Assembly: GCA_026390165.1 (NCBI GenBank)
Contig: JAPLGM010000011.1
Location: forward strand, 1 to 64,000
From: Campylobacterales bacterium
Lineage (GTDB): Bacteria > Campylobacterota > Campylobacteria > Campylobacterales > Sulfurimonadaceae
Direction of reading: 5' to 3'
DNA length: 64,000 nt
Positions 29,243 through 41,094 of this stretch are shown here, piece after piece. The translations under genes and the position numbers were made by a program. The number at the start of each line of letters is the position of its first letter. Position 1 is the stretch's first letter. The notes beneath the pieces are model-generated. The model made no database searches and had not been told where the DNA came from. It saw only the letters and a list, made by a program, of their open reading frames with translations.

Positions 29243-29634
29243 GAGAGTTCCTTGACATACAGATGCTGTTGCGATTTTGGGGTTGATTTGATAGTAGGAA
29301 GCTGCACCACTTCGAACCGCTGTTCACGGGTCAAATAGACAAGGGTAATAATATCACCGATTGCCACATTTTTAGAAGACTTAACGGCTTTCCCATTGAT
29401 GAGAACAACCCCCTCCTCTATCATATCTTGTGCGACTGCACGACGTTTAGTGAGGTTAACGGCATTTAAAAATTTATCGATACGCAAAAAGTATTCCAAT
29501 ATAATAGTTTTGAAGTGTTTATTGTAAATGATAATAACTAAAACGGAGATAAGAAGAGAATGAATTAATTCTTTTTTTGTTATCATTCGAAAAGTTTTCT
29601 TCATTAAGGGAGGTGTGAGTGCGTTTGACTCCAC
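29239..29634 (-). CDS. S4-domain RNA-binding protein
   Basis: RIDKFLNAVNLTKRRAVAQDMIEEGVVLINGKAVKSSKNVAIGDIITL. Confidence 0.8.
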   Translation of the reverse strand: MESNALTPPLMKKTFRMITKKELIHSLLISVLVIIIYNKHFKTIILEYFLRIDKFLNAVNLTKRRAVAQDMIEEGVVLINGKAVKSSKNVAIGDIITLVYLTREQRFEVVQLPTIKSTPKSQQHLYVKELS

Positions 29635-31676
29635 TAATTTTCACCTTGTCATTGTTTACAGCAACCGTTTTGCTAGCCGATACTAACGTTGCAACCTCTC
29701 TTTTGCAAGATATGTCCAATACAACTGAAATCGCGACCCAAACCAATCAAAATATTGATTATCAACCCTTTATCCTCTCCGTCCTTCAAAGTGATGACCT
29801 TATGAAATTTGGGGTTCATACACTGGGCGAAGCACTGACTCTTGTTCCTGGTGTTGATATGGCAGCCAACACGATGAACAATCGTACCCCTATATTCCGT
29901 GGTTCCAATCCTACCGCATACGGTCAATCGATCCTTGTCATTGACGGATATGTCGTCAATGACCATTTCTTCAGTGGATATGATGCTTATCTTGATTTGC
30001 CCATTGAGCTCATCGAGCGTATCGAAGTTGTCCGTGGATCGGGGAGCTTTATCGAGGGAGTCAACGGCTATGCAGGGACGATTAATGTCATTACTCATGC
30101 TCAAAATGAACCTCTCTCGAATCAAAGCGGTGTACTCTTTACCCATATAGGGGATGAGGGGACGATGGGTCTTGGCGGATGGGCACGCTATAGCGGTGAA
30201 AAATGGAAACTTTCGTTAGACGCATTTGGACAACGCCATGATCGTGAAACCCCCATCAGTACTACTGACTCATTGGGAAAAACGGGATATGCCAATTTAG
30301 GGATGGAGCACAGCGGTTTTGGTGTTACGTACCATTACGACCGTTTCGAATTAAATGGTCGCTTTAACAACTACAAAAATCAAAGTGCCTTTGGTAACCT
30401 CAACGCACTCCCCAACCCTGAAGGGATGCTTCAGCAACCCTCATGGTATCTTCAAAGCAAATATACACTCCCTATAGCAAACGATACAACCCTTATTTTA
30501 AAAGCATCCATGATGGAAGATAACTGGAAAAGTGATTCGCGACCGCTCCCTTCTGGTACATATACTTTTTTACTTAGCCCAATTACACGTGCTACTAAAA
30601 CAGTCACCTTTATGGATGGGTATTGGGCATCTCTAATGGTCAAGAGTCGCCGTATTAACGGAGGTGCATCACTTCATTATGACGCCTTAGAGGGACACCA
30701 TCTCATTTCTGGGGTTGAATCCACGTGGGATGCTGCGATAGATTCGTATTCGATTACAACGACTAAAACAGGATTAACAACGGATATAATCGATTATACC
30801 GATACAGCGTTTCAATATTTTAAATATCAAAATGCCATGCGTCAAAGTACTAATCTCTATTTTTCCGATACCATGACCGTTAATGATCAAATTGCTATAG
30901 CAATGACATTGGGACTAATAAAGACTTCAGATTCAGATGTTGGTTCTGACTTTTATGGACGTGCTTCACTCGTTTATCAACCGACCTATCACGATATTTT
31001 TAAACTTATGGGAAGTTCTGGAAATCGTCTCCCCTCGTTTCAAGAGATGTATTTGACCTGGAGCCGTTATGCAGGGGGAAATCCCAATCTTACACATGAA
31101 CATGTTCATTCACTGGAAGCCCAATATCTGCGTAAAATAAATACCAACCTCACGGCTGGGATCAATCTCTTCTATCTCATTAATTCTCAGCAAATAGCTC
31201 GTGATGCAACTGGCACATTTCAAAATTTAGGGGAGAATACTATTCATGGCGGTGAAGCTGAATTACGGGGAAAACTCATCCCCAATGATACATTTTCCCT
31301 TTCGTATAGCTATAGCCAAGGAGAAGTAAAAGATAAATCCAATCATGAATATCCTCTCCCGTATGCGGCGTCGCATCTTATAAAAGTGGCATACGCGTAT
31401 GATTTTGCCAACAACTGGACTATTGGAAGTATTTGGAATTATGTGGGAAGTAAAAAACGGGATTTAGATGATATTCGCGATACTTTAGCACCTTATAATA
31501 CCTTCGACATTTCCCTAGGTTGGAATATGAATGTACAAAAAGGGTGGTATGCTCAAGCTGGGATCAAAGATATTGGAAATACAATCGTCCGTTATCCGGC
31601 CCCTGCCAATACATATGCTGGAGATTACCCCATAGCAGAGCGAAATTTTTGGATTCGTGCTGGGTGGAGGTTTTAA
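29619..31676 (+). CDS. TonB-dependent outer-membrane receptor
   Basis: FGVHTLGEALTLVPGVDMAANTMNNRTPIFRG...QSILVIDGYVVND...IELIERIEVVRGSGSFIEGVNGYAGTINVITH plug and C-terminal aromatic beta-strand. Confidence 0.92.
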   Translation: MRLTPLIFTLSLFTATVLLADTNVATSLLQDMSNTTEIATQTNQNIDYQPFILSVLQSDDLMKFGVHTLGEALTLVPGVDMAANTMNNRTPIFRGSNPTAYGQSILVIDGYVVNDHFFSGYDAYLDLPIELIERIEVVRGSGSFIEGVNGYAGTINVITHAQNEPLSNQSGVLFTHIGDEGTMGLGGWARYSGEKWKLSLDAFGQRHDRETPISTTDSLGKTGYANLGMEHSGFGVTYHYDRFELNGRFNNYKNQSAFGNLNALPNPEGMLQQPSWYLQSKYTLPIANDTTLILKASMMEDNWKSDSRPLPSGTYTFLLSPITRATKTVTFMDGYWASLMVKSRRINGGASLHYDALEGHHLISGVESTWDAAIDSYSITTTKTGLTTDIIDYTDTAFQYFKYQNAMRQSTNLYFSDTMTVNDQIAIAMTLGLIKTSDSDVGSDFYGRASLVYQPTYHDIFKLMGSSGNRLPSFQEMYLTWSRYAGGNPNLTHEHVHSLEAQYLRKINTNLTAGINLFYLINSQQIARDATGTFQNLGENTIHGGEAELRGKLIPNDTFSLSYSYSQGEVKDKSNHEYPLPYAASHLIKVAYAYDFANNWTIGSIWNYVGSKKRDLDDIRDTLAPYNTFDISLGWNMNVQKGWYAQAGIKDIGNTIVRYPAPANTYAGDYPIAERNFWIRAGWRF

Positions 31677-32202
31677 GATGTTCCGCCTTCTCCTTCTTAC
31701 TTTTTGGTTTGTACCTTTTTTATTCGCTGAAAACACCCTTTTACTGGATACTCAAATTCGGATGATTCCGAAAATCATGGCACTTAATACCGATATACTC
31801 CGTCGAAGCAGCTCATCCGATATTATACTCGGAGTTATCAGTGATCAAAAGGGGTTTAGTAGCGCTGTTGCCAATAAAATAAATAATTATTACAAGGGTC
31901 AGGTGGGAAATCTCAAATTTACGACTGAAGCGATCACCCTTAGCGAATTTTTAGCACGACGGGACCTCTCTTTTGTCTATCTCCTTGATGCAAGTCAAAG
32001 CACAATCGTACAAGCAATTACCATCTCCAAAGAGAAAAAAGTCCCCTCTTTTGTCTATAATATTGGCGATTTACCCCTTGGGGCATTGGGTTCAATCTCC
32101 ATTGAACGCTCTACCATTATTACTCTTAATAAAAATGTGCTAACATCCGGAAATTATCATTTTAATGATGCTCTTTATCAAATGGCACGGTGGATTGAAT
32201 GA
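31657..32202 (+). CDS. Small secreted protein (YfiR/DUF4154-like, tentative)
   Basis: Signal peptide; position between TonB receptor and GGDEF-EAL gene; YNIGDLPLGALGSISIERSTIITLN-type region. Confidence 0.45.
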   Translation: MLGGGFKMFRLLLLTFWFVPFLFAENTLLLDTQIRMIPKIMALNTDILRRSSSSDIILGVISDQKGFSSAVANKINNYYKGQVGNLKFTTEAITLSEFLARRDLSFVYLLDASQSTIVQAITISKEKKVPSFVYNIGDLPLGALGSISIERSTIITLNKNVLTSGNYHFNDALYQMARWIE

Positions 32203-34112
32203 ACAAATTTAAGAACGCTGGACTTGCAACGAAGCTTTTCATTGCCCTTGTGAGTGGAGGGTCTATCCTCATTTTAATCTTGCTTCTCTCCACCTATCTT
32301 ATCATTCGAGACACTACCTTAGATGCGGAAGAGCAAAAAGCCCATTTACTCCTCGATACCGTCGATAAATCGGTTGCAGTTTCCCTATTTTTGGGGATTA
32401 TCCCCTCTATTGATGAAAAGCTCAGCACCCTTACACGGCTTGAAGAGGTAAAAAACATCACATTAATCAACGAAGAGGGAAAGGTACTCTATTCGTATCA
32501 CGCGCATAACCCCTCCAATGTTTATGCCGTTTCCGTCACTAAAACACTTTTTAAACCCAATAGTATGAGTCCCATAGGGGTTATATCCCTTACCTATTCG
32601 GGAAGAACAGTGGATGAAACAATGTATTATTTCTATCTTCTTTTAGGATTGATTAGTATCGTCTCTGTCCTCGCATTTGGACTCATGACATCATGGATCA
32701 GAAACCTCCTCCTTCCTATCAAAAAGATCGCTAGGGAACTGCATAATTACACCCCAGGGGAGATGCTACATTTCAATATAGACTCAGCTCAACGTGAATT
32801 TTTAGATATTACCCATGCTTTTAATGTGATGCAAAAAAGCGTCCAAAATTATTCGGAAATGATAAAAACCATTAACCAAAATTTGGCACAAACCGTCAAA
32901 GAAAAAACGAAAGAGCTCACAAAGAATCTTTATCACGACACATTAACCGCTCTTCCGAACCGATTAAAACTTCAAGAAGATTTAGCCCTTTACCCAAAAA
33001 ACACCGTTGCTATCTTCAATATTGACGATTTCAAAGAGGTTAACGACTTTTTCGGAATCGATGCGGGAGATGAGCTACTGCACCAAGTAGCCTATTGGCT
33101 TGGTGAGATAAAACTGTACCCCTACCGTATCGGAGGGGATGAGTTTGCTGCCATTCTCCCTCGTAACCGTTCAGGAAAAGCTATTCAAAAAGAGATTGCC
33201 CTCTTGCTCTCCAAATTTAGAGAAAAGAATTTTATTATCGGAGACGAGAGCGTTCACCTTCGAGCGACAATAGGGGTAGCCATCGAGAGTTCTAAACCAT
33301 TGATTCATGCCGATATTGCCCTCAATAAAGCCCGTGATCTTAAAAAAACCTATTCCATCTATGATTCCAGTGAAGGGGTTGAAGAGCAATACAAAACCAA
33401 TATTGCCATGTCCGCCCAAATACGTCAAGCCCTTATCGAGCACCGTATTGTTTGCCAATACCAACCCATTGTGAACTGTAAAACGGGGCTCACCGACAAA
33501 TATGAGACCTTAGTACGAATTGCTCGCGAGGATGGGACCCTTATCCCTCCCAACGATTTCTTACCCATTGCCCAAAAAACCAAACTTTATTCCAATATCA
33601 CCCAAGAGGTCATCTATCAAGCCTGCCATACGTTTAGCAATCGTACCGAGCACTTTTCCATTAATCTCTCTAGCAGTGACATTATGGATCCCTATATCGT
33701 CAGTAGCATAGAGAGGATTTTAAAACAGACAGGAACTGCCAACCGTGTTGTTTTTGAGATACTTGAATCAGAGGGGATTGAGAACTTCGAAGAGGTTGCC
33801 TCTTTTATCACCCGAATGAAAAAGCTAGGAGCCGCTATTGCTATTGATGATTTTGGGAGTGGCTATTCAAACTTTGAGAACATTCTTAAGCTTAATGTGG
33901 ATTTTTTAAAAATTGATGGCTCACTCATCCGTAATATCGATCAAAACTCACGTCATCGTATTGTTGTTGCATCCATCGTTGATTTTGCACACCGTATCGG
34001 TATTGAGACCATAGCAGAATTTGTTTCAAGTGAGGAGATACTCACAATCGTCACAGAACTGGGGATTACCTACTCGCAAGGGTACCATACGGGGAAACCC
34101 CAGTTTCTCTAG
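32199..34112 (+). CDS. Membrane GGDEF-EAL domain protein (HAMP-like linker)
   Basis: Two TMs, LYPYRIGGDEFAAILP, YQPIVNCKTGLTDKYETLVRI, FEILESEGIE, IDDFGSGYSNFENI, LKIDGSLI. Confidence 0.92.
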   Translation: MNKFKNAGLATKLFIALVSGGSILILILLLSTYLIIRDTTLDAEEQKAHLLLDTVDKSVAVSLFLGIIPSIDEKLSTLTRLEEVKNITLINEEGKVLYSYHAHNPSNVYAVSVTKTLFKPNSMSPIGVISLTYSGRTVDETMYYFYLLLGLISIVSVLAFGLMTSWIRNLLLPIKKIARELHNYTPGEMLHFNIDSAQREFLDITHAFNVMQKSVQNYSEMIKTINQNLAQTVKEKTKELTKNLYHDTLTALPNRLKLQEDLALYPKNTVAIFNIDDFKEVNDFFGIDAGDELLHQVAYWLGEIKLYPYRIGGDEFAAILPRNRSGKAIQKEIALLLSKFREKNFIIGDESVHLRATIGVAIESSKPLIHADIALNKARDLKKTYSIYDSSEGVEEQYKTNIAMSAQIRQALIEHRIVCQYQPIVNCKTGLTDKYETLVRIAREDGTLIPPNDFLPIAQKTKLYSNITQEVIYQACHTFSNRTEHFSINLSSSDIMDPYIVSSIERILKQTGTANRVVFEILESEGIENFEEVASFITRMKKLGAAIAIDDFGSGYSNFENILKLNVDFLKIDGSLIRNIDQNSRHRIVVASIVDFAHRIGIETIAEFVSSEEILTIVTELGITYSQGYHTGKPQFL

Positions 34113-34130: not shown

Positions 34131-35873
34131 TTAACTCCCAAATCCACTTTTAAAGTTCTCCTTTTGGACAACAATCTGCTTTTGTTTCTCTTTACGCACC
34201 GTATCTTTTTCAACAAATATCTTTTCCCTCGTTTTAGGATCCATCTCGGTGTAATACATCACCGCCGAATAGGTTCCTGGGGTCGGGGTAAACACTTGAG
34301 CTTGTTCCGGATTCATCTTGAGTTCATTGGTCGTAAAATTTTTCAGATCGTGCATATCTTTTTCCGTACATCCGGGATGAGCCGCGATGAGATAATAGGT
34401 CAAAAACTGCTTTTTCCCCTCTTCACGATTGAGCTGATCGTAGAGCTTTTTAAAATCAACGAGGGTTTGCTTGCCGGGTTTATTCATTAGATGAAGGACG
34501 TGATCGGACGTATGTTCGGGGGCTACTTTCATCTGCCCTGAGATGTGATGCTTGACCATCTCTTTAAGATAGTCGTACCCTTGCCGTTTGTCCTCATTGA
34601 TAAGATCATAGCGCACCCCTGAAGCGACAAACGCTTTTTTAACCCCCCGTACTTCACGCAAACGTCGTAAGAGGTTGATAATACGGGTATGATCCACTTT
34701 CATCGATTTGCACAGATGGGTATCATCGACACACCGCTGATGGGCGCACGTACCGTGTTTGAGTTTTTTGTTGCACTCATAGCCGTACATATTCGCCGTA
34801 GGACCTCCGACATCACTGATAATCCCTTTGAAATCCTTGTACTGTGTAAACTGTGTCGCTTCCGCCAAAATCGACGTTTCACTTCTAGTACGTATAGTAC
34901 GCCCTTGATGAACACCGATGGCACAAAAATTACACTCTCCCCAACACCCCTGATGGGTCATAATGGAGAACTTGATCGTTTCCAAACATTTCACCTCTCC
35001 TTGGGGACGGTGATAGGGGTGGAGTTCACGGGTAAAGGGCAATGCCGATACGGCGTCCATCTCATTCTCATCGAGATAATCCGCAGGGGGATTTTGGATA
35101 GAGTACCGTCCATCTACCTCTTGACATAATCCCATCGCACTTATTGGATCATTGTGATCATAAAACGCATCAAAAAGATCGATGTATCTCTCTTTATTCT
35201 CCAAACACTCTTTATGAGAAGGCAACGTCAAGTATCCCTCTTTCGGTTCTTTGGCAATATAACAGACACCTCGAATATCGTAGGGTGAAGTTCCATCTTC
35301 CAACGCTTTTGGAAGGGCGATAATCGCCCCCTCCCCCATCCCGTAAATCAAAAAGTCAGCTTTGGCATCAAAAAGGATAGGCTTGCGGAGTTTGTTACTC
35401 CAATAGTCATAATGGGTCACACGGCGTAAACTCGCCTCAATTCCCCCTAAAACAATCGGAACGGTATCTTTAAAATATTGACGGATAAGATTCGTATAGA
35501 CAAGGACGGCACGGTCAGGGCGCTTGTTATTAACCCCTCCGGGGGTGTAATCATCGTTGTTGCGGAATTTTTTGGTCGCCGTATAGTTGGAGACCATCGA
35601 ATCGACACTGCCGCCACTCACCCCCCAAAAGAGTCTCGGCTCTCCTAGACGCTTAATATCGACATCGCTGGTAATATCAGGCTGTCCGATAATACCGACA
35701 CGATACCCCTCACGCTCCAAGATTCGCCCTACCGCTGCTATACCGATAAAGGGGGAATCAATATAGGCATCCCCATTGACAAGGATAACATCGCACACAT
35801 CCCACCCTCGCGCATCCATCTCAGCACGGGTTGTGGGTAAAAATCGGAAAGTGTCTGAAGTAATAATTTTCAT
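34131..35873 (-). CDS. ygiQ: YgiQ-family radical SAM protein
   Basis: [40 protein letters not shown] ... MTHQGCWGECNFCAIGVHQGRTIRTRS. Confidence 0.95.
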   Translation of the reverse strand: MKIITSDTFRFLPTTRAEMDARGWDVCDVILVNGDAYIDSPFIGIAAVGRILEREGYRVGIIGQPDITSDVDIKRLGEPRLFWGVSGGSVDSMVSNYTATKKFRNNDDYTPGGVNNKRPDRAVLVYTNLIRQYFKDTVPIVLGGIEASLRRVTHYDYWSNKLRKPILFDAKADFLIYGMGEGAIIALPKALEDGTSPYDIRGVCYIAKEPKEGYLTLPSHKECLENKERYIDLFDAFYDHNDPISAMGLCQEVDGRYSIQNPPADYLDENEMDAVSALPFTRELHPYHRPQGEVKCLETIKFSIMTHQGCWGECNFCAIGVHQGRTIRTRSETSILAEATQFTQYKDFKGIISDVGGPTANMYGYECNKKLKHGTCAHQRCVDDTHLCKSMKVDHTRIINLLRRLREVRGVKKAFVASGVRYDLINEDKRQGYDYLKEMVKHHISGQMKVAPEHTSDHVLHLMNKPGKQTLVDFKKLYDQLNREEGKKQFLTYYLIAAHPGCTEKDMHDLKNFTTNELKMNPEQAQVFTPTPGTYSAVMYYTEMDPKTREKIFVEKDTVRKEKQKQIVVQKENFKSGFGS

Positions 35874-35890
35874 GCCAGAAGTGTACGGTG
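35725..35890. repeat. Left copy of about 166-bp direct repeat (ygiQ 5' end)
   Basis: Near-identical to 40887-41052, from cgccctaccgctgct to tgtacggtg. Confidence 0.92.
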
Positions 35891-36013
35891 TAAACTCTTA
35901 ATAAAAGACTATCCAACACGGGTTAATCTTGATTTAGCCTCTTTAATCAACTATTTTAACATTTTGGCATACAATAAGCTCAGATATTGCCTAAAGTCTG
36001 AAGGTTTGCCATT

Positions 36014-38500
36014 GTGAGATATATTATTCTAGCATTATTCCTCGTTACATTTATCGAAGCGCAAGAGCTAAAAAAAGTTTCGCTCCAACTCTTATGGAAG
36101 CACCAGTTCGAGTTCGCCGGTTATTACATGGCAAAAGAGAAAGGATTTTACAAAGAGGCGGGATTGGATGTTGAACTTATCGAATACGAATTCGGAACCG
36201 ATATTGCACAAAATGTCTCCAAACGCCATACCGATTTCGGAGTGGGAAGTTCTGCCGTTATCTTGGATAAAATCAACGGATTGGATGTTTATCTTCTGAT
36301 GCCAACCCTTCAGACCTCCCCTTTTGTACTGATGAGCAAAAAACGTCCCGACATTAAAACCGTCGCCGATTTAAAAGGAAAAAAAATCATGTTCACCCCC
36401 AATCAGGTGACCATGGCTTCGCTTGATGCAATGCTCACAGTCAATCATATCTCAAACCGTGATTACATCCACCAAGCACACAGTTTCAATGTTCAAGATT
36501 TAATCGATGAAAAAACCGATGCAATGAGCGCATACCTCTCCAACGAACCGTATCATATGATCGAAAAAAAGATACCTTACACCATTTTCAACCCTTCCGA
36601 CTTTGGATTTAACTTTTACGATGATATCCTCTTTACCTCGTATAAGCTGTACCAAGAAGATCCAGAAATGGTTCAAAAATTTTATCAAGCAACCCAAAAA
36701 GGGTGGGAATATGCATTCAATCACATCGATGAGAGCGCACAAGTCATCTTTGATAAATATAATACCCAAAACAAGAGCTTAAAACATTTGCATTTTGAAG
36801 CAAATGAGCTCAAACGAATTAGCCATTTCGGTTCCAACGAATACGGAAAATTCAAACCTGAAATTCTTCAGCAGATTATTCAAACCTACAATCTCCTCAA
36901 TATTTCAAAGTCAACGGTTGATATCCAAAAAATGGTTTATCCGGATGCCCTCTATGTCGAAAGTTCCATCGACTATATTCTCTTATGGAAAATAGTGGGA
37001 GGAGTTTTTGCCCTTTTTATCGCATTGTATTACTGGAATCGTAAACTCAGTAAACTTAATCACGAAATCCAAAGTAGCAAAAAAAAGGTAATGGTACTAC
37101 TTGACAATGCAGGTCAGGGATTTTTATCCTTCTCCACCGATTTCAAAATCGATGAAGAGCATTCCAAAGAGTGTCTTAAGTATTTGGGAGAGAACATTAC
37201 CCATCGCAATATCACCGATCTCCTCTTTCAAGACCAAAGTAAAAAAGAGTTTTTTACCAATACGTTAATCGTTGCATTACAAGAAAAAAATGTTCTCTCT
37301 CAAAATGCAATCCTTTCACTTTTACCGAATCTGATTCTACTGAATAAAAGAGCCTTGCGTCTTGAATACAAAATTATTGATACTGATAAAATCATGATGA
37401 TTATCACCAATATTTCAGAGCAGAAAAAACTCGAAAGAAAGATTAAAAAAGAGCAAGAGATACTCAAAATGATTGTTGCTGTCGTGAGTGAAAGTGACGT
37501 ATTTTACGATGCAAAAAAAGATTTTACCTTTTTTACCGATCAATCCAAAACTCTTATTGATATGAGTAAGACAGCTTTGCACAACGTTACCATTCTTTAT
37601 CGTATCATACACACGTACAAGGGGACCTTTTCACAACTGTATATGATCGAAACCGTCAATTTTCTCCATAAAGTAGAAAATGACCTCTCAAAAATGATAA
37701 AACAACCGATCGAAAAGAACGATGAGCTTATCACATTCTTAGAGGAGTGTGACTTTAAAACAAGTTTTCACAAAGATTTGGAAGTAATACGCGAATTTCT
37801 CGGAGACGAATTTTTGGAAAAAGAAAATTTTGTTCAAATCGATATTGGTGATATTCACTCTCTCCAAGAAAAAATCACCCGTATTTTCAACGATCAGGCG
37901 TATACTACACCCGAATGTACTGATGTATTAACCTATATTCAAAGCTTATCAACACAAAAATTATCCACTTTGTTGAAACCTTACGTCCATTTCACGCAAC
38001 AATTAGGTGAAAGACTGAATAAAGAGCTATACGATTTAGAGATTGTCGGTGACAACGACATCACGGTCTCAGATACTCTCAAACCTTTTATTAAATCACT
38101 GATTCATGTATTTAGAAACAGTATCGATCACGGGATAGAAGAGGCTCAAACACGCCTTGAAAAGAATAAAGACGAAAAAGGTTCTATCAGCTGTAGTTTT
38201 AAAAGAGAAAATGATACACTTCATCTCATTATCTCGGATGACGGTGCGGGACTTGATGCCGATAAAATCAAACTAAAACTTCGTGATCAAGGGTTAGAGA
38301 CACAATTGCTTACCGACGCAGAGCTCTATCTCCATATTTTTGATGATAATTTTTCGACCAAAGAGGATATTTCCACTATTTCTGGTCGCGGTATCGGTTT
38401 GGGAGCGGTAAAAAATGAACTCGAAAAACAAGGTGGAAGAGTAGAGATAAATTCAAAAAAAGATGTCGGAACAACATTTGAATTTATTCTACCTGCATAA
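36014..38500 (+). CDS. NMT1/THI5-like periplasmic sensor fused to Hpt and CheA-type HATPase histidine kinase
   Basis: KKVSLQLLWKHQFEFAGYYMAKEKGFYKEAGLDVELIEY (NMT1), TM near aa 330, HTYKGTFSQL (Hpt), LIHVFRNSIDHGIEEAQ (CheA N box), ISGRGIGLGAVKNELEKQGGRVEI (G box). Confidence 0.85.
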   Translation: MRYIILALFLVTFIEAQELKKVSLQLLWKHQFEFAGYYMAKEKGFYKEAGLDVELIEYEFGTDIAQNVSKRHTDFGVGSSAVILDKINGLDVYLLMPTLQTSPFVLMSKKRPDIKTVADLKGKKIMFTPNQVTMASLDAMLTVNHISNRDYIHQAHSFNVQDLIDEKTDAMSAYLSNEPYHMIEKKIPYTIFNPSDFGFNFYDDILFTSYKLYQEDPEMVQKFYQATQKGWEYAFNHIDESAQVIFDKYNTQNKSLKHLHFEANELKRISHFGSNEYGKFKPEILQQIIQTYNLLNISKSTVDIQKMVYPDALYVESSIDYILLWKIVGGVFALFIALYYWNRKLSKLNHEIQSSKKKVMVLLDNAGQGFLSFSTDFKIDEEHSKECLKYLGENITHRNITDLLFQDQSKKEFFTNTLIVALQEKNVLSQNAILSLLPNLILLNKRALRLEYKIIDTDKIMMIITNISEQKKLERKIKKEQEILKMIVAVVSESDVFYDAKKDFTFFTDQSKTLIDMSKTALHNVTILYRIIHTYKGTFSQLYMIETVNFLHKVENDLSKMIKQPIEKNDELITFLEECDFKTSFHKDLEVIREFLGDEFLEKENFVQIDIGDIHSLQEKITRIFNDQAYTTPECTDVLTYIQSLSTQKLSTLLKPYVHFTQQLGERLNKELYDLEIVGDNDITVSDTLKPFIKSLIHVFRNSIDHGIEEAQTRLEKNKDEKGSISCSFKRENDTLHLIISDDGAGLDADKIKLKLRDQGLETQLLTDAELYLHIFDDNFSTKEDISTISGRGIGLGAVKNELEKQGGRVEINSKKDVGTTFEFILPA

Positions 38501-38521
38501 TATTCACGTAGAAGGAAAAAA

Positions 38522-39004
38522 ATGATTTTAGATGCTTTGATTTTACAAACAAAACTGCTACTCCAAGATGACATGGGAATAACGGTCAACAGTGTCCAAA
38601 GTGAGAGAGGCTTAATCAACAAGTTAAATATGAAAAACTATACCTCCATGATCGGAACAGGAGGAAAGTTGAGCCTGTTGGTCATCATAAGTTTTGATAA
38701 CAGTATGATAGATAAGCTCGTTGATCTCTTTATGGACGGAGTGGAAATTGATTCCGATGAAGTGCTAGAGATCAAAGACAGTGTTGCCGGAGAGATGATA
38801 AACACCCTCATGGGTCTTGCCCTCCCAACCTTTCCGGGACGTGGCAAAGGGGTAACGATCACCCCACCAATTACCATCAACGATGCTAGCACTATCTCAA
38901 AGCATAAAAGTTCTACCATAGCAACCGCTGAGATTAACACCAATTTTGGTCAATTCAGCATCAGTATTATTGATTCAAAAAATTCAAACTCGCAGGAGAA
39001 GTAA
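38522..39004 (+). CDS. CheX-like chemotaxis phosphatase
   Basis: EIKDSVAGEMINTLMGLAL (ExxN motif) within CheX-size protein. Confidence 0.7.
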   Translation: MILDALILQTKLLLQDDMGITVNSVQSERGLINKLNMKNYTSMIGTGGKLSLLVIISFDNSMIDKLVDLFMDGVEIDSDEVLEIKDSVAGEMINTLMGLALPTFPGRGKGVTITPPITINDASTISKHKSSTIATAEINTNFGQFSISIIDSKNSNSQEK

Positions 39005-39406
39005 ATGTTAAAAGTACTAGTGGTCGATGATTCTCTGATTATTCGGAAAAAACTTTCAAAACTTATCGAAAATCTTGGGCACACGGTGGTATGCGACGCC
39101 AAAACGGGACAAGAAGCAATCGAAGCGTACGCTGCACATAAACCCGACCTTGTAAGCATGGACATCACCATGCCCGATATGGATGGTATTACCGCTGTCA
39201 AAAATATTATCAAAGATCATCACGATGCTAAAATCATTATGGTCACCTCCCACGGTCAAGAAGATATGGTCATCAAATCAATTCAAGCGGGTGCAGTGGG
39301 ATATATCCTTAAACCGCTTACTCAAGAAAAATTAGCTCAAGCGATAGGGGAAGTATTCATAGAGTATGCTGTAGAAGAGTCCGATTTGCTTGATGATGAG
39401 ATATAA
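39005..39406 (+). CDS. CheY-like response regulator
   Basis: VLVVDDSLIIRKKLSKLIENLG ... LVSMDITMPDMDG ... MVTSHGQ ... GYILKPL. Confidence 0.93.
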   Translation: MLKVLVVDDSLIIRKKLSKLIENLGHTVVCDAKTGQEAIEAYAAHKPDLVSMDITMPDMDGITAVKNIIKDHHDAKIIMVTSHGQEDMVIKSIQAGAVGYILKPLTQEKLAQAIGEVFIEYAVEESDLLDDEI

Positions 39407-39418
39407 AAGGGATCTGAT

Positions 39419-40351
39419 ATGCAAGAAAACAGACTCTTTGAAGCATTATTGGATGTTATCCCCTTTGCCGCGTATGCCGTAGATATTGAAACCTATGAGA
39501 TTGTTTACGCCAACAAGCGGATGAGTGAAAATATGTATGCCCCCAGAGAGAATTTTTGCTGGAAAAAACTCTACGGACAAAATGAGGTATGTAGCTGGTG
39601 TACCATCTCAGAGCTCAAACAACGACACAAAATATACAAAAGCGAAAAACTGATTAATAATTTTTTTGATGAGGGAAATGATAAATGGTTCCAAGGCTAC
39701 GATGAACTTGTCCGATGGCCTGATGGACGAACCGTAAAATATTCGATCTCGGTCGATATAACCGAACAAAAAGAGATTCAAGCGTCAATGATTAAAACCA
39801 ATACTAAGCTTGCCATTCAAAGTAAAAAACTCAAAGAAGCAAATCAAAAATTGGAATATTTGGCAACCAAAGATTATCTCACGGGTATCAATAATCGAGG
39901 AAACTTTTTCAAACTTTCAATCGATATGCTGGAACGCTCGATGCAGGAGGGTCTACAGATGTATATTGCGATGCTCGATATTGACCATTTCAAAACCCTC
40001 AACGACCATTTTGGGCACAACACCGGAGATGCCGCACTGATTGAATTTTCTAAAAAAGTTAACGAAAACCTTGATGAATCGGATATTTTTGGACGGATAG
40101 GAGGAGAAGAATTTGCCCTATCGTTATTAAGTGAAGATCAAGAGGGGACACTGAAAAAATTAGATGCTCTACGAGAAGCTATTTCACAGATCGTTCTCAC
40201 TAAAGATGACAATACGATTCACTTTACCGTCAGTATCGGAGTGGCTGCCGCAACTCAATCGGATACAATTGATACTCTATTAGACCGCGCCGATCAAGAA
40301 CTCTATCATGCAAAAAATGATGGTCGAAATAAATTAAAATTTAGGCTTTGA
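39419..40351 (+). CDS. PAS-GGDEF diguanylate cyclase
   Basis: PAS with CW-x9-C-x-WC motif; FGRIGGEEFALSLL GGDEF domain. Confidence 0.9.
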   Translation: MQENRLFEALLDVIPFAAYAVDIETYEIVYANKRMSENMYAPRENFCWKKLYGQNEVCSWCTISELKQRHKIYKSEKLINNFFDEGNDKWFQGYDELVRWPDGRTVKYSISVDITEQKEIQASMIKTNTKLAIQSKKLKEANQKLEYLATKDYLTGINNRGNFFKLSIDMLERSMQEGLQMYIAMLDIDHFKTLNDHFGHNTGDAALIEFSKKVNENLDESDIFGRIGGEEFALSLLSEDQEGTLKKLDALREAISQIVLTKDDNTIHFTVSIGVAAATQSDTIDTLLDRADQELYHAKNDGRNKLKFRL

Positions 40352-40352
40352 T

Positions 40353-40868
40353 ATGCTGGAAAACAAACTCTTTGAAGCGTTGCTGGATGTCATCCCCTTC
40401 GGCGCTTATGCTGTCGATATCGAAACATATGAAGTGGTTTACGCGAATAAACTGATGCGAGACAAAATGCACGCCCCAAAAGACGGCTTTTGCTGGGAAA
40501 GAATTTTCGGACAAGACGAAATTTGTACGTGGTGCAGTATCGAATCTTTGAAGATGAGAAAGCCCTTGCGTAAAGAAGAAGATAAATATATCTGCGAGTT
40601 TTTCAATGAATACGATGATCAATGGATTAAATCATACGATGAACTGATCAGCTGGCCAGATGGACGAGATGTTAAATACTCCATTTTAGTCGATATTACC
40701 GATCAAAAAGAGATACAGGGGAATATGATCAAATCCCATGCTACCCTCGCTATAAAGACAAAACAGCTCAGTATAATGAATAAAAATCTTCAAATTACAA
40801 AACTCAATCTCCAAAAAACAATTAACGAACTTGAAAAGAGACAAGAAGAATCTGAATCCAAAGAGTAA
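40353..40868 (+). CDS. Stand-alone PAS protein, paralog of the upstream PAS-GGDEF N terminus
   Basis: [32 protein letters not shown]... mirrors 39419 protein; ends after coiled coil with no GGDEF. Confidence 0.8.
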
Positions 40869-40869
40869 G

Positions 40870-41035
40870 TAACACTATCCAAAATCCGCCCTACCGCTGC
40901 TATGCCGATAAAGGGGGAATCAATATAGGCATCCCCATTGACAAGGATAACATCGCACACATCCCACCCTCGCGCATCCATCTCAGCACGGGTTGTGGGT
41001 AAAAATCGGAAAGTTTCAGAAGGGTTTGTTTTCAT
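40870..41035 (-). pseudogene. Truncated ygiQ N-terminal fragment
   Basis: ORF 40790-41035 N terminus matches YgiQ; C-terminal portion is out-of-frame antisense to the PAS gene. Confidence 0.8.
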
Positions 41036-41052
41036 AACGTGATTGTACGGTG
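40887..41052. repeat. Right copy of about 166-bp direct repeat (truncated ygiQ 5' end)
   Basis: Encodes [53 protein letters not shown] on the minus strand, then runs out of homology. Confidence 0.92.
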
Positions 41053-41094
41053 AAATCTCTTACAGAGGGCTATACGTTACGGTATAATAATTTT

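Follow-up and report, generated by a model that had tools for sequence, protein, structure and literature searches.

Introduction

HisKA/DHp histidine kinases often dephosphorylate their own response regulators, whereas CheA and other Hpt-type kinases do not. In CheA, a class II histidine kinase, the Hpt domain (P1) is far from the CheA-type HATPase (P4) and the target is CheY. The chemotaxis CheX–CheY pairs of Thermotoga and Borrelia, in which CheX has an ExxN site, belong to CheA/CheW/MCP sets. Among the chemosensory classes described for Campylobacterota, the F3 class is reported to have a separate cheX adjoining fliNO (PMC9321776), and the kinases of this phylum have been tallied by HisKA plus HATPase (PMC9239204). 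The Esn electrode-sensing network of Geobacter comprises an MCP, CheW and a response-regulator cyclase, with a CheA-like kinase implicated upstream of the cyclase (PMC5585712). Of the PBP clan, SBP_bac_3 alone is stated to have been studied in c-di-GMP networks (PMC8846402). Plasmid sensors of Burkholderia and Ideonella (H1, H3) combine Hpt with HATPase and lack the CheA tail.

The locus described here lies in a window of 64,000 nucleotides (the whole stretch of DNA that was analysed; assembly GCA_026390165.1, contig JAPLGM010000011.1) from a Campylobacterales bacterium, and its genes resemble each of these systems in part (Table 1). Like CheA, the receptor kinase has an Hpt far from a CheA-type P4 and a CheY as its predicted target; unlike CheA, it has neither P5/CheW nor a Pfam match to H-kinase_dim, carries its own periplasmic sensor, TM segment and PAS domain, and falls into a separate clade. 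It differs from HisKA-type two-component kinases in having no HisKA/DHp domain (Pfam), and a tally by HisKA plus HATPase would therefore leave kinases of this kind out. The CheX shares family, ExxN site and CheY partner with the Thermotoga and Borrelia pairs but is encoded with a receptor kinase, and a fliNO-linked cheX was not found in the same genome (CheX profile, E 1e-3). As in Esn, a CheA-like kinase would act upstream of a diguanylate cyclase, but the cassette has no MCP, no CheW and no receiver on the cyclase. With the c-di-GMP enzymes that carry periplasmic binding domains (PMC8846402) it has periplasmic input in common, which in the cassette would drive a kinase; NMT1-GGDEF fusions are present in the same genome. 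H1 and H3 are about 25% identical to the kinase and fall on the CheA side (98/88 group), not with the cassette lineage, and no CheX or CheY is annotated alongside H3, the one of the two with listed genes. The parts are known and their combination is apparently undescribed: full-text searches of open-access papers gave no account of the cassette, as a standard architecture or otherwise.

Results

Anatomy of the receptor kinase

Table 1. Features of the cassette and of its flanks, in window coordinates.
Feature	Position	Strand	Evidence or remark
Receptor kinase, 828 aa: signal peptide-NMT1-TM-PAS-Hpt-CheA-type HATPase	36014..38500	+	GTG start
NMT1/THI5-type periplasmic binding domain, residues 32-240	36107..36733	+	Pfam PF09084 E 1.8e-46; PDB 4nmy, 3ix1
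Single TM segment, about residues 318-341	36965..37036	+	hydropathy scan
PAS domain, about residues 356-466, then signalling helix	37079..37411	+	AlphaFold, Foldseek
Hpt (CheA P1-like), His533 in HTYKG at 37610-37612	37481..37834	+	family profile, conserved H/K/G
CheA-type HATPase (P4), residues 695-827	38096..38494	+	HATPase_c E 6e-16
CheX phosphatase (predicted), 160 aa, E91-x-x-N94	38522..39004	+	PF13690 E 4.8e-12
CheY, stand-alone receiver, 133 aa, phospho-accepting D53	39005..39406	+	D8, D9, D53, T81, K103
PAS-GGEEF diguanylate cyclase, 310 aa; PAS with conserved C47, C58, C61	39419..40351	+	PF00990 E 4.7e-36
Second-effector remnant: same PAS as cyclase, kinase part gone	40353..40868	+	comparison with relatives
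Left copy of 190-bp direct repeat, 5' end of intact ygiQ (gene 34131-35873, - strand)	35711..35900		
Right copy of 190-bp repeat, 89% identical, orphan 5' end of native ygiQ	40873..41062		

A preliminary description of the locus had proposed that one protein joins an NMT1 domain, a TM segment, an Hpt and a CheA-type HATPase without a CheW-like domain or receiver, and that a CheX with an ExxN motif and a CheY follow. The fusion is borne out by Pfam, hydropathy, the family profile and phmmer, the two missing domains by Pfam with canonical CheAs as contrast, and the downstream genes by PF13690 with E91/N94 and by the receiver residues; overlooked were the PAS domain between TM and Hpt and the continuation of the operon to a PAS-cyclase and a PAS remnant.

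In the kinase, Pfam found no CheW-like domain, no receiver and no HisKA, and no CheW match appeared in the scanned relatives; the protein stops at the HATPase and thus has no P5/CheW domain. As a control, a pair of canonical CheAs from the same genome was scanned, and here Hpt, H-kinase_dim, HATPase and CheW all exceeded the cut-off by a wide margin. By phmmer, residues 637-827 align with CheA structures (8c5v, 6s1k, E about 1e-29), and helices are predicted by AlphaFold in the P3 region, in place of the H-kinase_dim that Pfam did not match there. The Hpt motif reads HTYKGT. Its domain lay below the Pfam cut-off for the 828-aa kinase by itself and scored weakly in several relatives, and a profile of the segment from 28 relatives matches CheA P1 structures in PDB (1tqg, E 9e-8; 2ld6, 1e-7). 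Within His533-Thr-x-Lys-Gly, H and K are invariant in 27 loci and G is found in 26 of them, with one G-to-A change. AlphaFold, run with 35 relatives, predicts, at a mean pLDDT of 85 (about 90 in the PAS stretch), the PAS domain, a long helix and a bundle of helices; the best Foldseek matches of this kinase-core model are PAS structures only, and the Hpt assignment rests on the profile instead.

The NMT1 domain has remote similarity, at low identity, to thiamine-pyrimidine binding proteins (3ix1, E 5e-12; 4nmy), and that it might bind a nutrient is a guess from these remote thiamine-precursor-binding relatives. The five other NMT1 matches in the same genome (L004-L008) all belong to long proteins of several domains, which carry GGDEF, PAS, SBP_bac_3 or HATPase parts, and the search of this genome returned no free transport binding protein.

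The operon downstream of the kinase

CheX scores 46.2 bits against a PF13690 gathering score of 27, and its family profile matches the CheX structures 1squ and 1xko as well as 3hzh. The D, D, D, T, K set of CheY is invariant across 27 loci, and the protein has no output domain. The cyclase that follows has no receiver; its AlphaFold model (pLDDT 83) has Foldseek matches to PAS-GGDEF structures. In relatives the second effector is a protein of 497-759 aa with PAS-HisKA-HATPase architecture, to which two of three scanned proteins add REC-Hpt, and because it runs on there into HisKA-HATPase we regard the short gene behind the cyclase as a remnant. MCP, CheW, CheR and CheB genes are absent from the operon.

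Recurrence of the cassette

Whole-protein orthologues occur in several Campylobacterota (L011-L018, L025), of which that at L017 is cut by the contig end and that at L018 has a frameshifted NMT1 part; the closest relative belongs to a Sulfuricurvum MAG (L011), and the genome behind the window is of the Sulfuricurvum type. With a PAS-Hpt-P3 profile, relatives were found in 4 of 150 Campylobacterota and 11 of 41 genomes of the genus, in 8 of 274 Gammaproteobacteria (the class of Pseudomarimonas, L041) and in 7 of 247 genomes of Desulfobacterota (the phylum of Desulfamplus). Their sensors comprise NMT1, dCache_3, dCache_1-HAMP-PAS, up to four PAS domains, REC and a Tll0287-like domain, and one further set consists of NMT1 plus three SBP_bac_3. 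The protein is therefore no one-off fusion, relatives with different sensors being spread over three phyla. The operons of relatives are without MCP and CheW genes, except for an MCP-signal protein near L142. A tblastn search of PLSDB gave no plasmid-borne cassette, the matches being CheA-like and remote Hpt proteins only.

Several loci are of interest in their own right. At L013:3665-8478 and L014:5977-11055, cassette kinases with unlike sensors stand in tandem and have one CheX and one CheY in common, which suggests signal integration; the unlike sensors of such tandem kinases, with the L013 pair being sisters, also suggest sensor exchange after duplication. Another cassette of the genus (L130-L134) has no NMT1, adjoins a divergent GGDEF-EAL gene and sits upstream of an acetolactate-synthase-like gene pair. 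A MAG titled 'Helicobacter pylori PMSS1' (L015, L034) has the cassette as well; its isolate name and content suggest an environmental bin whose title misleads.

Linkage of kinase, CheX and CheY

Among 41 strong loci (39 whose kinase scored over 140 bits, plus L137 and L243, which were under-scored through a second domain match), CheX is present at 35, as a separate gene at 30 and fused to the kinase C-terminus at five (L041, L128, L129, L137, L154). The fused kinases take at least three separate positions in the tree, and their CheX occupies the place that the CheW domain (P5) has in CheA. CheX is absent at six loci, two of which (L012, L143) run off the contig, and a dedicated CheY is present at 36 of the 41, with L012, L134 and L143 among the other five running off the contig. 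In the same genome, the CheX profile (E 1e-3) found two genes only, both within cassettes, and its three cassette CheYs reach 202-228 bits, compared with 90 for the best of the remaining receivers. The third cassette kinase of this genome (L145, contig C15) has a cognate CheY and no CheX, and may borrow CheX from the other two cassettes. Over 27 loci the distances are correlated (kinase-CheX 0.88, kinase-CheY 0.86, CheX-CheY 0.88; 0 of 2000 permutations as high), which fits co-inheritance, although co-inheritance of neighbours alone would yield such values too and they are no proof of contact. That kinase, CheX and CheY make up a minimal, self-contained circuit of the receptor-kinase type finds good support in these correlations and in CheX and CheY travelling with the kinase across three phyla.

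PAS effectors and output

The cysteine-bearing PAS domain of the effectors (Cys-PAS) was searched in 25 genomes. Twenty matches reached 159 bits or more, every one of them in a cassette, and the next match scored 65 bits. It is found on two effector types, cyclase and HisKA kinase, in three phyla, and in Desulfobacterota it again stands behind CheY, fused to GGEEF or kinase parts. As the full-score domain is confined to cassettes, the PAS effectors are likely CheY targets, and gene linkage suggests that CheY~P likely acts on them and so sets c-di-GMP. PAS effectors accompany 16 of the 41 strong loci, including the Campylobacterota NMT1-type cassettes with the downstream region covered; the remaining 25 have none nearby, which means that the cassettes do not all feed into c-di-GMP, or that their output is located elsewhere. 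The earlier proposal that the circuit feeds diguanylate cyclases is consequently upheld in part: strict gene linkage and the cassette-confined PAS speak for it, but the operon holds one cyclase, not several.

A further-reaching reading, which we hold to be somewhat less likely than not, takes the cassettes as a distinct class of chemosensory-like system: array-free non-CheA kinases in which CheX, separate or fused at the P5 position, would replace the CheW module and CheY~P would dock on a dedicated Cys-PAS, driving a cyclase or a second kinase. It is rather unlikely, by our estimate, that the phosphorylation circuit is real but CheY~P targets the flagellar motor, another chemosensory system or something distant, the PAS-cyclase being a separate redox or metal sensor that only accompanies the cassette. 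Such a reading would account for the bare receiver, like that of a motor CheY, for the conserved C47, C58 and C61, and for cassettes of the same genus without any PAS effector; it sits poorly with full-score PAS domains that were found only adjoining these CheY genes, in three phyla and on two effector types, and with a cassette CheY far from the other receivers of the genome. It also weighs against a cyclase controlled by CheY that the effector PAS may sense redox or metal by itself.

The cyclase at 39419-40351 is missing the arginine of the inhibitory site (I-site, RxxD). In a comparison that included L239, L242 and L244, this holds for cassette cyclases of Campylobacterota (DESD, EKED and others), which points to a loss of product inhibition, while those of Desulfobacterota keep RxxD. 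The stretch just before ygiQ (29619-34112) holds genes for a TonB receptor, for an unknown protein of small size and for a protein with CHASE8-HAMP-GGDEF-EAL architecture, the last of which places further c-di-GMP genes close by.

Insertion beside ygiQ

The cassette lies between the two copies of the ygiQ repeat. At L162 the ygiQ 5' end is joined directly to the genes that stand right of the cassette here (90% identical over 1.5 kb), an arrangement that represents the empty site and marks the cassette as an insertion. In L011 the same cassette is at another genomic locus, and its GC content here is 37.8% against 40-43% alongside. Taken together, the flanking repeat, the empty site, the other locus in L011 and the GC content indicate that the cassette was acquired horizontally.

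A duplicated ygiQ fragment around an insertion and a truncated second effector are also what would be expected of recently acquired cargo that is decaying and without function in this genome. We hold this to be improbable: none of the four genes for kinase, CheX, CheY and cyclase is disrupted, and their catalytic motifs are complete. The truncation, moreover, also occurs in L011, where the cassette sits elsewhere in the genome; it therefore antedates the insertion beside ygiQ and has led to no loss.

Lineage of the kinase core

In a tree built on the P3-P4 region (root arbitrary), 13 canonical CheA rows, seven of them from the same genome, form one 99/95 clade without the receptor kinase, and a 99/99 branch separates all strong cassette kinases from CheA and four remote Hpt proteins. 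Judged by this tree, the kinase core is a lineage of its own, apart from true CheA, and derivation from CheA is rejected by the tree and by the domain tests. That the protein is an ordinary CheA minus its CheW domain, still in or decaying from a flagellar chemosensory system, is very improbable despite its CheA-type Hpt and HATPase, given the separate CheA clade, the TM segment and periplasmic sensor, an operon devoid of MCP, CheW, CheR and CheB, and the same architecture kept in three phyla.

Two CheW-less Hpt-HATPase proteins on Ideonella and Burkholderia replicons (L256, L257) form a separate CheA-side group, and the Ideonella gene is followed by an MCP gene.

Discussion

With moderate confidence we propose that the locus is a mobile, sensor-exchangeable receptor-kinase cassette, chemosensory-like but without an array, through which a ligand sets c-di-GMP. 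A small molecule, probably pyrimidine- or thiamine-precursor-like, would be bound by the periplasmic NMT1 domain, and the signal, passing through the one TM segment and the PAS domain, would set autophosphorylation of His533 by the CheA-type HATPase, as the conserved motifs suggest. From His533 the phosphoryl group would pass to D53 of the dedicated CheY, in keeping with the invariant residues and the strict linkage. CheX would then dephosphorylate CheY, a reset that an Hpt-type kinase cannot perform itself; the five natural kinase-CheX fusions support this step, and CheX would be obligatory because the kinase has no DHp domain, the source of phosphatase activity in ordinary kinases. Finally, going by linkage only, CheY~P would act on the Cys-PAS of the neighbouring effectors, here the GGEEF cyclase, so that the output would be c-di-GMP and not flagellar rotation.

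The cassette would be a natural simplification of chemotaxis signalling, in which receptor, kinase, messenger and reset are contained in three or four genes and sensors are swapped between copies. With it, one can test to what extent kinases of the CheA type depend on arrays and CheW, and for what reason a separate phosphatase is required by those of the Hpt type; it would also link a periplasmic binding domain to c-di-GMP.
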